This document shows, piece by piece, positions 27,427-31,136 of a stretch of 43,017 nucleotides of DNA (positions within the stretch are counted from its first letter, which is position 1; the number at the start of each line of letters is the position of its first letter). The stretch is from NCBI GenBank assembly GCA_014377305.1, contig JACMPW010000011.1:1-43017 (forward strand). The letters are read 5' to 3'. This DNA is from Candidatus Altimarinota bacterium. Lineage in GTDB: Bacteria; Patescibacteriota; Gracilibacteria; BD1-5; UBA2023. The notes below the pieces were generated by a model. That model saw only the letters and a program-made list of their open reading frames with translations, was not told the origin of the DNA and made no database searches. The position numbers and the translations under genes were made by a program.

Positions 27427-28569
27427 ATGACAAACGAACTCATCCTATGGACTAAGAAGATTCTCATAGTAATAGCTATACTCGCTATCTGATATATCCT
27501 CTACATGATGGAATCACTCATCGTAGTAATCCTGATATCAGGATTTATGACCATGCTCATCACACCACTCATAGACCTGATGGAGCGACGATGAGTCCAT
27601 GCGAGCTTCACTATACTATGAGTATATATCTCTATCATCATAATAGGATCTATTGTTGCTGGCACCATCGTCCCTATTATCATCAACTATGTGAGCGATA
27701 CAGTGACTACTGTCATCATCTGGACCAAGACAGCACAGTCGACCTATGCAACACAGGGAATACACGGATTTGGACTCAGTCCATATATAGAGAAGGCTAT
27801 CACATTCCTCTTCAATGAAAAAAATATTGACCAAACACTCTCGTTCATCAGAGACAATGCGGGCAATATCCAATCTGTTATTACAACACAACTCTCATCG
27901 ATCACGAGTGGAGGATTTCAGGTACTCTCGAGTGTAGGAGGAGTTTTTTTTAACTGGATACTTATCGCGATTATGACATTCTCGATGGCACTCGAACGCC
28001 AACGTATCGGACAATTTATTCTCGATATCGTGCCAGATACAATAGAGATTTATCTCATGATTCATTATAGAGAGATACAGTTCACACTCAACGCATGGAT
28101 ACGAGCCATGCTTATACTTTCATGTAGTATTTTTACGATTATCTATCTCTCGCTCACAATTCTAGAACTCATATTTGGTTTCGATACGGGTCGTACGTTT
28201 ACCCTTGCACTTATCAGTGGGGTGATGGAGTTCATACCATATATTGGACCTATCATAGCACTCATCCCAGCATTTATCATCGGTATCGGTATATCATGGC
28301 AGGTCGCACTCGCTATAGCGATCCTCTATCTCATCATACAACAGATAGAGAACAACCTACTCGTTCCCTATGTGATGAGCCGTTCACTGGATCTTTCACC
28401 ATTTCTCGTATTCGTCGTGATGATTGCTGGAGCTACACTCTGAGGTATTCTCGGTATCATCCTTGCAGTTCCTGTTGCAGCAATTGGACGTGTTATGTAT
28501 ATGAGTTATCGCCACAATAGACTTGGATCATCCAGTATTAAAACACAATCAAAATCTCCAAAAATATAA
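27427..28569 (+). CDS. AI-2E family (PerM/YdiK-like) membrane transporter
   Basis: Polytopic membrane protein of 380 residues. Two N-terminal membrane helices, then MLITPLIDLMERRGVHA (family-typical), a central helical exported domain, and a C-terminal block of membrane helices with GVMEFIPYIGPIIALIPAFIIG and QQIENNLLVPYVMSRSLDLSPFLVFVVMIAGATLGGILGIILAVP (quoted in two parts: QQIENNLLVPYVMSRSLDLS, then the rest), the hallmark of the AI-2E exporter superfamily. Substrate is unknown; family members include exporters and Na+/H+ antiporters. TGA codons encode Gly (27489, 27591, 28440 region). Confidence 0.88.
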
Positions 28570-28575
28570 AATCTT

Positions 28576-28603
28576 TTGACAAAGATATCAGAAAGTATAC
28601 TAT
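28576..28603 (+). promoter_or_regulatory. Predicted promoter of the aromatic attenuator operon
   Basis: TTGACA (28576-28581) and TACTAT (28598-28603), spacer 16. The expected transcript start is near 28610, fourteen bases ahead of the leader-peptide ATG. Confidence 0.6.
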
Positions 28604-28623
28604 TAAAACAGTTCTACCAATCT

Positions 28624-28698
28624 ATGCAAACAATATTCAACTCTACATTCTTCTATTTCTACTATTTTCAGTTCATACTGGATGGTAGATCTATATAG
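28624..28698 (+). CDS. Phe/Tyr-rich attenuator leader peptide
   Basis: A 24-codon reading frame from ATG 28624 to TAG 28696. It starts MQTIFNST, then FFYFYYFQF, then ILDGRSI: six Phe and three Tyr codons among its first 17, seven of them consecutive (codons 9-15, positions 28648-28668). This is the design of attenuator leaders such as that of pheA: ribosomes stall there when charged tRNA-Phe or tRNA-Tyr is scarce. The end of the peptide frame (28669-28682) is exactly the RNA segment that can pair with the downstream terminator. It lies between a TTGACA promoter and a terminator, with the aro genes following. It is a regulatory reading frame rather than a functional protein. Confidence 0.8.
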   Translation: MQTIFNSTFFYFYYFQFILDGRSI

Positions 28699-28753
28699 TC
28701 TGTTGAGCAGAATATATATACCTCTCCTCCAGTATGAACTGGGGGAGTTTTTT
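28669..28753 (+). promoter_or_regulatory. Transcription attenuator: mutually exclusive antiterminator and terminator
   Basis: Terminator: CTCCTCCAGT (28724-28733), loop ATGA, ACTGGGGGAG (28738-28747), ten pairs with one G-U, then TTTTTT from 28748. Antiterminator: CAGTTCATACTGGA (28669-28682), inside the leader peptide frame, is fully complementary over 14 bases to TCCAGTATGAACTG (28728-28741), which is most of the terminator stem and loop. A ribosome stalled on the early Phe/Tyr codons leaves the first segment free to pair and prevents termination; a ribosome that proceeds covers it, so the terminator forms. The terminator ends 19 bases before the ATG of the first structural gene. Confidence 0.75.
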
Positions 28754-28772
28754 ATTTTATCATTTTTTATAT

Positions 28773-29198
28773 ATGCTAGTGCCATCACTCACTCCACTCA
28801 ACCGATCTTCATGAAGAACACAAGATAGATCCACCCAAGTCAACGGAGCAATCAGTAATCTCTTATCAAGGTGAGCCCATCCAATCAAGAGTCTCATATC
28901 TCTATCCACTGCCAAAGACCCCGAAACATGGTCTCAGTCTATCATCGAGGCCTTATTATGAAATCTGATATATGACGGATCGAGTCATGGTCAGTTCTGA
29001 ACTCCTGATAACGACATCATAAAGGCAATATGTCATACTCATAATTCAAGATGGGTATGGACCCGAATCCTCTGAATCAAGCTAGATCTACTCATCATAA
29101 ATGCTCCAGGAAAAATATCAGATACACAATTACGACGAATACAGGATATTCAAAAAACTCTCGAAAAAGAATTCACGAAACCAACTTCGTTATCATAA
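28773..29198 (+). CDS. Unrecognised protein, first structural gene of the attenuated operon
   Basis: A 141-residue protein visible only if TGA is Gly (five in-frame TGA codons). It reads MLVPSLTPLNRSSGRTQDRS at the start and ends in a basic helix (QLRRIQDIQKTLEKEFTKPT). The middle has TAKDPETWSQSIIEALLGNLIYDG and SRWVWTRILGIKLDLLIINA. I recognise no family. Its position between a Phe/Tyr attenuator and shikimate kinase suggests a role in aromatic amino-acid or chorismate metabolism. Five bases separate it from the kinase start. An accidental open frame is possible, but codon choice resembles its neighbours and no TAA or TAG occurs over 141 codons. Confidence 0.6.
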
Positions 29199-29203
29199 GC
29201 ATT

Positions 29204-29770
29204 ATGTTTTTCCTCTACTGACCTCCCTGAAGCTGAAAAAGCACAATAGGAAAAAAATTAGCTCAATATCAGTGTGTACATCATATCGACACAGATTCTT
29301 TGATAGAATCCAAACATTGAAAAATATGAGATATTATATCTAGATATGGCATCAATTATTTCAGAGAGATAGAGACTCAGACTCTCATAGATATAGCAAC
29401 CTCTCAGTCTATAAAGAATACTATCATTTCTCTTGGGTGAGGAACTCTCCTACGAAGAGAAAATCTATGAATTATACAGACGATACGATGAAAAGTAATC
29501 ACTCTCATATGAGATACAGATACTCTCTACCAGCATATCATTTCTGATAGAGACAATAATCGTCCACTTGTTATAGATAGGACAAACTTTGGAAAATTAA
29601 TGTTGGAACGTCAAAATCACTATGAAAACTTTGATACCACCGTACATGTGCATGGTAAAGATATCAATACAATCGTGGATGAAATTCTGATACTCATAGC
29701 TATACCATCACCTGTGCCTCGATCTCCATGAGTATCCGTTCGATCACTTGTCGATCATTCCACGCTATAG
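29204..29770 (+). CDS. aroK: Shikimate kinase
   Basis: ATP-dependent kinase that phosphorylates shikimate in the pathway to chorismate; 188 residues. P-loop GPPGSGKSTIGKKLAQ at residues 6-21, IDTDSLIE (the shikimate-binding DTD), YFREIETQTL (FRxxE motif), ISLGGGTLLRRENL (the GGG shikimate-binding loop), and DNNRPLV (the RPL lid). The three P-loop glycines at residues 6, 9 and 11 are all encoded by TGA (29219, 29228, 29234), which hides the gene under the standard code. The last 23 codons run antisense to the 3' end of murE (71 shared bases). The upstream attenuator implies control by Phe/Tyr supply. Gluconate kinase was considered, but the DTD, FRExE and GGG motifs decide. Confidence 0.9.
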
Positions 29771-31031
29771 CTCCTGCTTGTGTCACTTGAACTGTCTCAG
29801 CTCACTTGCCTGCTATGATGAGTACATCACCTGGTCTGAGCATGATGAGAGCAGTACGGATTGCATCTCCTCGGGATGGTATGATCCAGAATCCTTCACC
29901 CTCTCTGCGAGTGATCCCCTCGCTCACGTCACGGATGATACGGAGGGAGTCCTCTGTATAGGTATCATCGTCAGTGAGAATCACCACATCTGAGAGCTCA
30001 TCGACGACCTTACCCATCTTGGGTCGCTTGGTCCGATCTCGGTCACCTGTAGCACCGAATACTGTGATGAGTCTCTGAGTCGTAGAGAGTTCACAGAGCG
30101 TAGAGAGCACACTCCGAAGTGAGTCTTCTGTATGAGCGTAGTCAACATAGATCTTAGCTCCGCGAGTATTGGATACTTCTTCGAGACGACCTGGTACACA
30201 AGCAAATTCTACGATAAGAGCTTGGATAGTGGGAATATCGATCTTCTGTGACATGAGGATAGCAACAGCGCAGAGGATATTCGATATATTGAAGTTGCCA
30301 GGCAAGCGAGATGAGAGATGGAAAGTATTCGATGGGATACGAACATCAAATTCAGTCGTCATCTCAGTATTGACTATATTTTCCGCTCGTATCTGAGCCG
30401 ATGGAGAGAATCCTACAGTATAGAGATTGTCCACCACGATATCACGCGTGAGAAATCTATCAGAGTACTCACTGTCGATATTGACGACTCCGACTTTTCG
30501 AATTCCCTTTTTGATACCGTTCTTATAGAGATTACGAAAAAGTTGTAACTTGGTATCAATATAATTATCCATCGTCTTATGCAGATCGAGATGATCCTGG
30601 GCAATATTCGTCAATACTGCAGCATCATAGCGGAGTCCATGTACACGATGATAGTAGAGAGCATGGGATGAAGTCTCGATAACAGCGTACTCACAGCCAG
30701 CTCTCTTGGCTCTCGAGAGAAAATCCCACATATAAAAAGGAGATGGTGAGGTCATCTTCGTATTGTTCTCCTCTATCTTACCATCGATCATCATATTCAC
30801 AGTCGAAAACATAGCGACCCGCTTCCCTGCTTTCTGGAGGCCACGAGCGATCAGATTGGTCGTGGTAGTTTTTCACTTGGTTCCTGTCACTCCGATCACG
30901 AGCATATCACGGGCAGGATTGCCTGAGAGCCAAAAAGCAATCACTCCACGAGCATAGTGATACGTGATACGAAGTGGTGAGTCGAGCGAGATGAGACTGC
31001 GTAAAAGTACAAGCATAAATCAAAAATCCAT
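29700..31031 (-). CDS. murE: UDP-N-acetylmuramyl-peptide synthetase, MurE type
   Basis: Cytoplasmic Mur ligase that adds the third amino acid to the peptidoglycan precursor; 443 residues from ATG 31031 (438 from ATG 31016). ATP loop IGVTGTKGKTTTTNLIA, with Gly53 encoded by TGA; then ETSSHALYYHRVHGLRYD, AVLTNIAQDHLDLH, LPGNFNISN, GRLEEVSN, KIYVDYAHTEDSLRSVL and VFGATGDRDRTKRPKMG. It is shorter at the N-terminus than E. coli MurE, keeping only a remnant of the UDP-binding first domain. At the position of the DNPR motif that selects meso-diaminopimelate it has DDDTYTED, so the third residue may differ. The 3' end overlaps aroK tail-to-tail. Reading the last TGA (29802-29804) as Gly adds 33 residues. 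Confidence 0.93.
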
Positions 31032-31136
31032 ATAATAATATAGCTTGAATTTTATAAGAAAATGGTTATTATTCAACTCAAAATACCGTTTCTCTCTTGC
31101 CAATCAGACAATCACTATCCTACTAATCTAGCACCT

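Follow-up and report, generated by a model that had tools for sequence, protein, structure and literature searches.

The pheA and pheST leaders of Escherichia coli combine a short, Phe-rich leader peptide with a terminator and a competing antiterminator. In a 2010 survey, leader-peptide attenuation was known only from the Proteobacteria and Actinobacteria, to which the Firmicutes were then added, with His leader peptides that are perhaps of independent origin (PMC2965389). Candidate-phyla bacteria of the kind studied here are described as devoid of amino-acid synthesis and host-dependent for many amino acids, and their regulation is hardly known (PMC11665869, PMC8406219); our literature search yielded no description of leader-peptide attenuation from Gracilibacteria or from the candidate phyla radiation. 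Here we describe a locus that we interpret, with a probability of about 0.88, as a ribosome-mediated transcription attenuator of the pheA/trp type upstream of two genes, ORF1 and aroK, for which we infer termination, stalling and induction. The mechanism is classical; the surprise is its presence in a candidate-phyla lineage that reads UGA as glycine, and in front of an orphan enzyme in a pathway-less genome.

The window analysed is one whole contig (C7), 43,017 nucleotides long, of a Candidatus Altimarinota bacterium genome (G000; 918 kb, 93% complete) in which TGA is read as glycine. The evidence for this recoding consists of open frames and of TGA codons at conserved glycine positions; ARAGORN found no tRNA with anticodon UCA among the 30 tRNA genes of the genome, though TGA stands for Gly. 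The promoter, leader, ORF1 and aroK form a cassette on the plus strand, with an AI-2E-family transporter gene (27427-28569) as its upstream neighbour and a convergent murE-like gene, named from its own sequence, on the other side (29700-31115). The sigma-70-type promoter (28576-28603) has TTGACA at 28576-28581 and TACTAT at 28598-28603, separated by a 16-nt spacer. The leader peptide ORF of 24 codons (28624-28698; ATG at 28624, stop TAG at 28696-28698) reads MQTIFNSTFFYFYYFQFILDGRSI* and includes seven consecutive Phe/Tyr codons, TTC TTC TAT TTC TAC TAT TTT (28648-28668); these are region 1, the predicted stall sites. Region 2, the 5' strand of the antiterminator (28669-28703), is assigned from folding and compensatory changes; its first 14 bases, directly 3' of the Phe/Tyr run (CAGTTCATACTGGA, 28669-28682), are the exact reverse complement of TCCAGTATGAACTG (28728-28741), that is, of the terminator 5' arm and loop. 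Region 3, the 3' strand of the antiterminator (28712-28741), contains this arm. The intrinsic terminator itself (28724-28757), which is kept in orthologues, has a stem at 28724-28747 (10 bp, 6 GC) and a T tract from 28748; between the end of the tract at 28753 and the start of ORF1 at 28773 there are 19 bases.

This layout had been proposed in an earlier note on the same DNA, and on re-check its coordinates for promoter, leader, complementary segment and terminator were every one correct; we likewise confirm the seven consecutive Phe/Tyr codons in a 24-codon leader, and the terminator 19 bases before a gene that is followed by a shikimate kinase (a PF01202 match). The note had also held that the arrangement is invisible when TGA is taken as stop. 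This applies to the genes, which need UGA=Gly (ORF1 has five in-frame TGA codons, aroK ten), but not to the leader, which has none, is thus visible under either genetic code, and can be seen under table 11. At gathering level, no Rfam family (riboswitch, T-box or leader) was found in the window.

The description of the locus as a shikimate kinase operon, also from the note, is right for aroK but not for its first gene, ORF1 (28773-29198, plus strand; 141 aa, predicted all-helical), which is no recognisable aro gene. ORF1 has no Pfam, NCBIfam or PDB-sequence match and no relatives in viral contigs. Its only homologues are in G002 and G019. Among 353 genomes of the class, these two and G000 alone encode it, in each case behind a Phe/Tyr leader. 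AlphaFold models from the three sequences reached pLDDT values of only 62 and 71, and Foldseek returned nothing significant for them in the PDB or among viral models. VIA-align gave Z values of at most 8.2 and 7.0, which carry little weight for helical bundles. The aroK-like gene (29204-29770, plus strand) encodes a shikimate kinase of 188 aa with 10 in-frame TGA=Gly codons; three of these lie in the P-loop. It matches PF01202 at 1.4e-27 (97.2 bits against a cut-off of 22.1), and its best solved-structure match is shikimate kinase I, 1kag (6.7e-12). The proteins of G000 and G002 are 40% identical and both retain the P-loop, DTD, FRxxE, GGG and RPL motifs intact, from which it follows that the protein has been under selection. 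The 3' end of aroK overlaps the convergent murE-like gene by ~70 bases (29700-29770); there is no such overlap in G002.

We propose that RNA polymerase would start at the 28576-28603 promoter, with a ribosome trailing through the leader. If charged Phe-tRNA or Tyr-tRNA were scarce, the ribosome would stall within 28648-28668 and leave 28669-28703 free to pair with 28712-28741 once this had emerged; with the antiterminator formed, there would be no terminator, and ORF1 and aroK would be transcribed. If charged tRNA were plentiful, the ribosome would move over 28669-28690 and block the pairing; the terminator at 28724-28753 would then form and transcription would end. Control of the operon by aromatic amino-acid supply through ribosome stalling was already suggested in the earlier note, and the conservation of the locus, its covariation and the targets of the leader in relatives, all read from sequence, argue for it.

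The antiterminator is a long hairpin of ~22 pairs; it and the terminator are mutually exclusive, the terminator 5' arm being common to both. We folded the RNA at the stage at which the terminator 3' arm is about to be transcribed, placing a ribosome footprint codon by codon; the predictions assume equilibrium and a crude footprint, without timing. For G000, the computed antiterminator probability is 0.97-0.98 with the ribosome on any of the first six Phe/Tyr codons; it drops to 0.22 on the seventh and to 0.06 one codon further. Of the 13 Phe/Tyr leaders folded, 12 show a fall of the antiterminator past the run (G000, G002, G007, G012, G013, G017, G019, G022, G048, G051 and G066, and weakly G039), the exception being G064, with no clean fall after its run; the fall is robust to footprint size in the nine leaders tested, G064 apart. 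With no ribosome at all, the antiterminator is predicted at 0.96 at the decision point in G000, which requires the leader to be translated efficiently. A ribosome halted at the stop codon partly restores the antiterminator (0.39 in G000, 0.99 in G012, 0.84 in G022); shut-off thus depends on timing, which lies outside these folds.

A leader for other amino acids was seen in G026 (L219, from 7676, plus strand): it is Leu/Val-rich (MKTISSSLLVLVVLPNLEGLGA*), with a TTGACA promoter and a terminator at the contig end. It looks like a branched-chain attenuator, the contig ending before any downstream gene. Its modelled antiterminator falls in the same way once the Leu/Val run ends, which makes this leader a natural control for the logic.

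In the same-genus genome G002 (contig of Candidatus Gracilibacteria isolate HEM.3), the transporter gene, TTGACA promoter, leader (MQKIHSSTFFYFCFFFQTSLKGRFM*), terminator, ORF1, aroK and murE follow in identical order. In G003, one contig ends with the promoter and a partial leader (MSYVNSTFFFYF), and another begins with what is apparently the remainder of the attenuator. At the corresponding locus of G007, the leader MKIISSTFFYFYFFQS*, located by a motif search, precedes a prephenate dehydratase gene (6.8e-28) with a weak ACT-domain match. In G001 and G004 the cassette is absent and the transporter gene abuts murE. TTGACA is at the same position in G002 (L016) and G003 (L117), and most orthologous attenuators of the genus and family carry this promoter.

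The earlier note had looked to such orthologous loci for retention of the Phe/Tyr codons and for covariation in the alternative pairing, and both were found. The run persists (FFYFYYF, FFYFCFFF, FFYFYFF, FFYFYFF and FFYFSFFF) as other leader residues drift, with the reading frame held through 3-nt indels. The alternative pairing is kept through compensatory changes: from G000 to G002, A-U replaces G-C at 28681/28729, with leader and terminator arm changing jointly, and C-G replaces U-A at 28676/28734. On G000, G002 and G007, 92% of the antiterminator cells are paired, versus 39-61% when the pairing is slid, and 4 of the 22 pairs are compensatory. On ten sequences this rises to 14 of 22, a count that none of 500 shuffles reaches, in an alignment fitted to the model; the seven sequences outside model building give 10 of 22, a count that 20 of 500 shuffles also reach, in an alignment that leans to the model.

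A covariance model (R1) built from three loci and scanned over the 27 genomes of the family added members in G017, G012, G013, G022 and G015 and, less surely, in G016. Behind the leader stands DAHP synthase in G013, G022 and G016 (assigned in G016 by sequence similarity only), and a hypothetical ORF, chorismate mutase and DAHP synthase in G015. In G019, a Phe-rich leader (MFKKFAFSFYFISP*) and terminator precede an ORF1 homologue, and aroK is absent there. In a sister family, leaders of this type precede aro operons in G039 (aroA/aroC/CM/pheA/tyrA), G051, G064 (tyrA-like/aroKD/aroE/DAHPS/aroB) and G066; the sister-family and G019 leaders were recognised by scan or by eye, R1 scoring only that of G048 among them (E 0.0023). 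Altogether there are 17 Phe/Tyr leaders in 16 genomes. Most prephenate dehydratase genes of relatives were not found to have a Phe/Tyr leader directly before them. The aromatic-pathway genes behind the relatives' leaders tie the attenuator to Phe/Tyr supply independently of the codons.

Several further features of these loci were observed. G016 (L218, minus strand, ~5591-5310) has two tandem Phe/Tyr leaders with terminators, MLTIIQKQYFFYFFFQTFEGLFCGV and MITLNKKLYFFFYYFYFRTRGKFFYCLC, before DAHP synthase. In G048 (L106, minus strand, 9114-8520), a Phe leader (MNRLSSTFFFFFFSFLVRR*) and terminator precede a hypothetical ORF of ~150 aa. Further downstream there is an ORF that resembles indole-3-glycerol-phosphate synthase, and the opposite strand carries an aroK-aroD fusion close by. 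A hypothetical protein of ~445 aa, similar in G051 and G039 (L101, L104), follows pheA or tyrA in their aro operons.

The earlier note had also proposed a search of the genome for the remaining aro and phe/tyr genes; it returned no other aro enzyme in G000 and leaves the kinase an orphan. Chorismate synthase (PF01264) is absent from G000 and from all 27 family genomes, prephenate dehydratase (PF00800) was not found in G000, and the only member of the EPSP-synthase family (PF00275) there is MurA; AroB, AroD, AroE, DAHP synthase, TyrA and chorismate mutase of relatives gave no tblastn match in G000. PF01264 and PF00800 are missing from G002 as well, which makes a gap in a single assembly an improbable cause. 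With no pathway around the kinase, the usual feedback, in which a shortage of Phe leads to more Phe being made, cannot close in G000. In the family, prephenate dehydratase occurs in 11 of 27 genomes without chorismate synthase, terminal Phe enzymes that lack a source of chorismate; in G001 (L184:5139-5951) it is fused to chorismate mutase (CM_2 2.4e-16, PDT 3.6e-40).

The attenuator may be real and yet a leftover of a decaying ancestral aromatic operon, its switch governing remnants of little or no use (an orphan AroK, an orphan prephenate dehydratase, unrelated small ORFs). This is compatible with the attenuator mechanism, and we regard it as possible, if on the unlikely side. The absence of chorismate synthase from the whole family would fit, as would the varied cargo of the locus: a hypothetical ORF with chorismate mutase and DAHP synthase in G015, prephenate dehydratase in G007, ORF1 and aroK in G000 and G002, unrelated orphan ORFs of 150, 104 and 58 aa in G003, G012 and G017, and nothing in G001 and G004. 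The overlap of aroK with the murE-like gene in G000, unlike in G002, points the same way. Against this, the kinase motifs have stayed intact in the two diverged proteins, and a relic switch would be expected to lose its pairing, yet the pairing covaries.

Cargo varies between neighbours at this locus while the attenuator persists. We speculate, more tentatively still, that the conserved Phe/Tyr attenuator is a fixed socket with exchangeable cargo in bacteria unable to make chorismate, orphan genes being turned on at aromatic shortage. If so, the switch would sense host supply, for example for the processing of host aromatic intermediates, and not the cell's own biosynthesis.

The leader-terminator DNA is 68% identical between G000 and G002, as compared with 40% for ORF1 and 45% for aroK. 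Stronger conservation of the RNA than of the genes that follow it, together with cargo that changes among neighbours, could also mean that the attenuator transcript or the leader peptide is itself the conserved product and acts in trans, the downstream gene being incidental; the S. meliloti trp leader peptide (PMC7298713) offers a precedent for action in trans. We consider this improbable, as mutually exclusive terminator and antiterminator structures with a gene at short distance are what cis control needs, and the cargo in most relatives is aromatic biosynthesis.

It is slightly less probable again that the leader senses slow translation in general, caused by a drug or by shortage of any amino acid, and not Phe/Tyr specifically. 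In the G000 folds, a stall on any codon between the start and the sixth Phe/Tyr codon, both included, favours the antiterminator, as in drug-sensing leaders; the Phe/Tyr run, however, is retained in 17 leaders as other codons drift, the relatives' targets are aromatic genes, and the switch point lies at the end of the Phe/Tyr run, or in G026 at the end of the Leu/Val run.

The leader-terminator RNA folds with z = -4.67 (0 of 200 shuffles equally stable), and when the terminator is kept and the leader shuffled, none of 200 shuffles attains the antiterminator probability of the real leader, and 2 of 200 attain its stall-dependent difference. Short ATG ORFs followed by a strong terminator number only 25 in the whole genome, this leader alone among them being Phe/Tyr-rich, and there is no second Phe/Tyr leader of the kind in the 918 kb. 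Although the intergenic region is AT-rich and Phe and Tyr codons are T-rich, a chance pyrimidine-rich stretch that reads as Phe/Tyr beside the upstream gene's terminator is refuted by the conservation of this unique, covarying leader.

With the attenuator reading, a starvation sensor becomes readable from sequence alone; in nearly all leaders folded, the switch is computed to occur where the Phe/Tyr run ends. Amino-acid sensing in host-dependent bacteria thereby becomes testable by a simple reporter in a laboratory host. It also raises the question of why pathway-less genomes retain such a switch before a lone shikimate kinase or prephenate dehydratase.

Compared with known systems, the kinase matches the AroK/AroL family (PF01202) and differs in lacking the rest of the pathway. 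The attenuator shares its logic with the trp, his and ilv attenuators of Proteobacteria and Actinobacteria (a stall, region 2 left free, 2:3 pairing, no terminator; PMC1183508, PMC1262725), from which it differs in amino acid, phylum and the UGA=Gly code. The His leaders of Firmicutes (PMC2965389) are likewise attenuation outside Proteobacteria and Actinobacteria, with another amino acid and other genes, and not in candidate-phyla bacteria. Rfam's Phe_leader (RF01859) aligns to 28627-28755 over its full model length at 22.8 bits (E 0.093), below its gathering score of 55, and the G000 leader is therefore not a member. The likeness to the Phe attenuators of the E. coli type lies in the Phe-rich leader, the terminator, the antiterminator and, in relatives, the Phe-related target; the G000 leader differs from them in its mixed Phe and Tyr codons, in an antiterminator 5' strand inside the leader ORF, in its phylum, and in its target, an orphan kinase.
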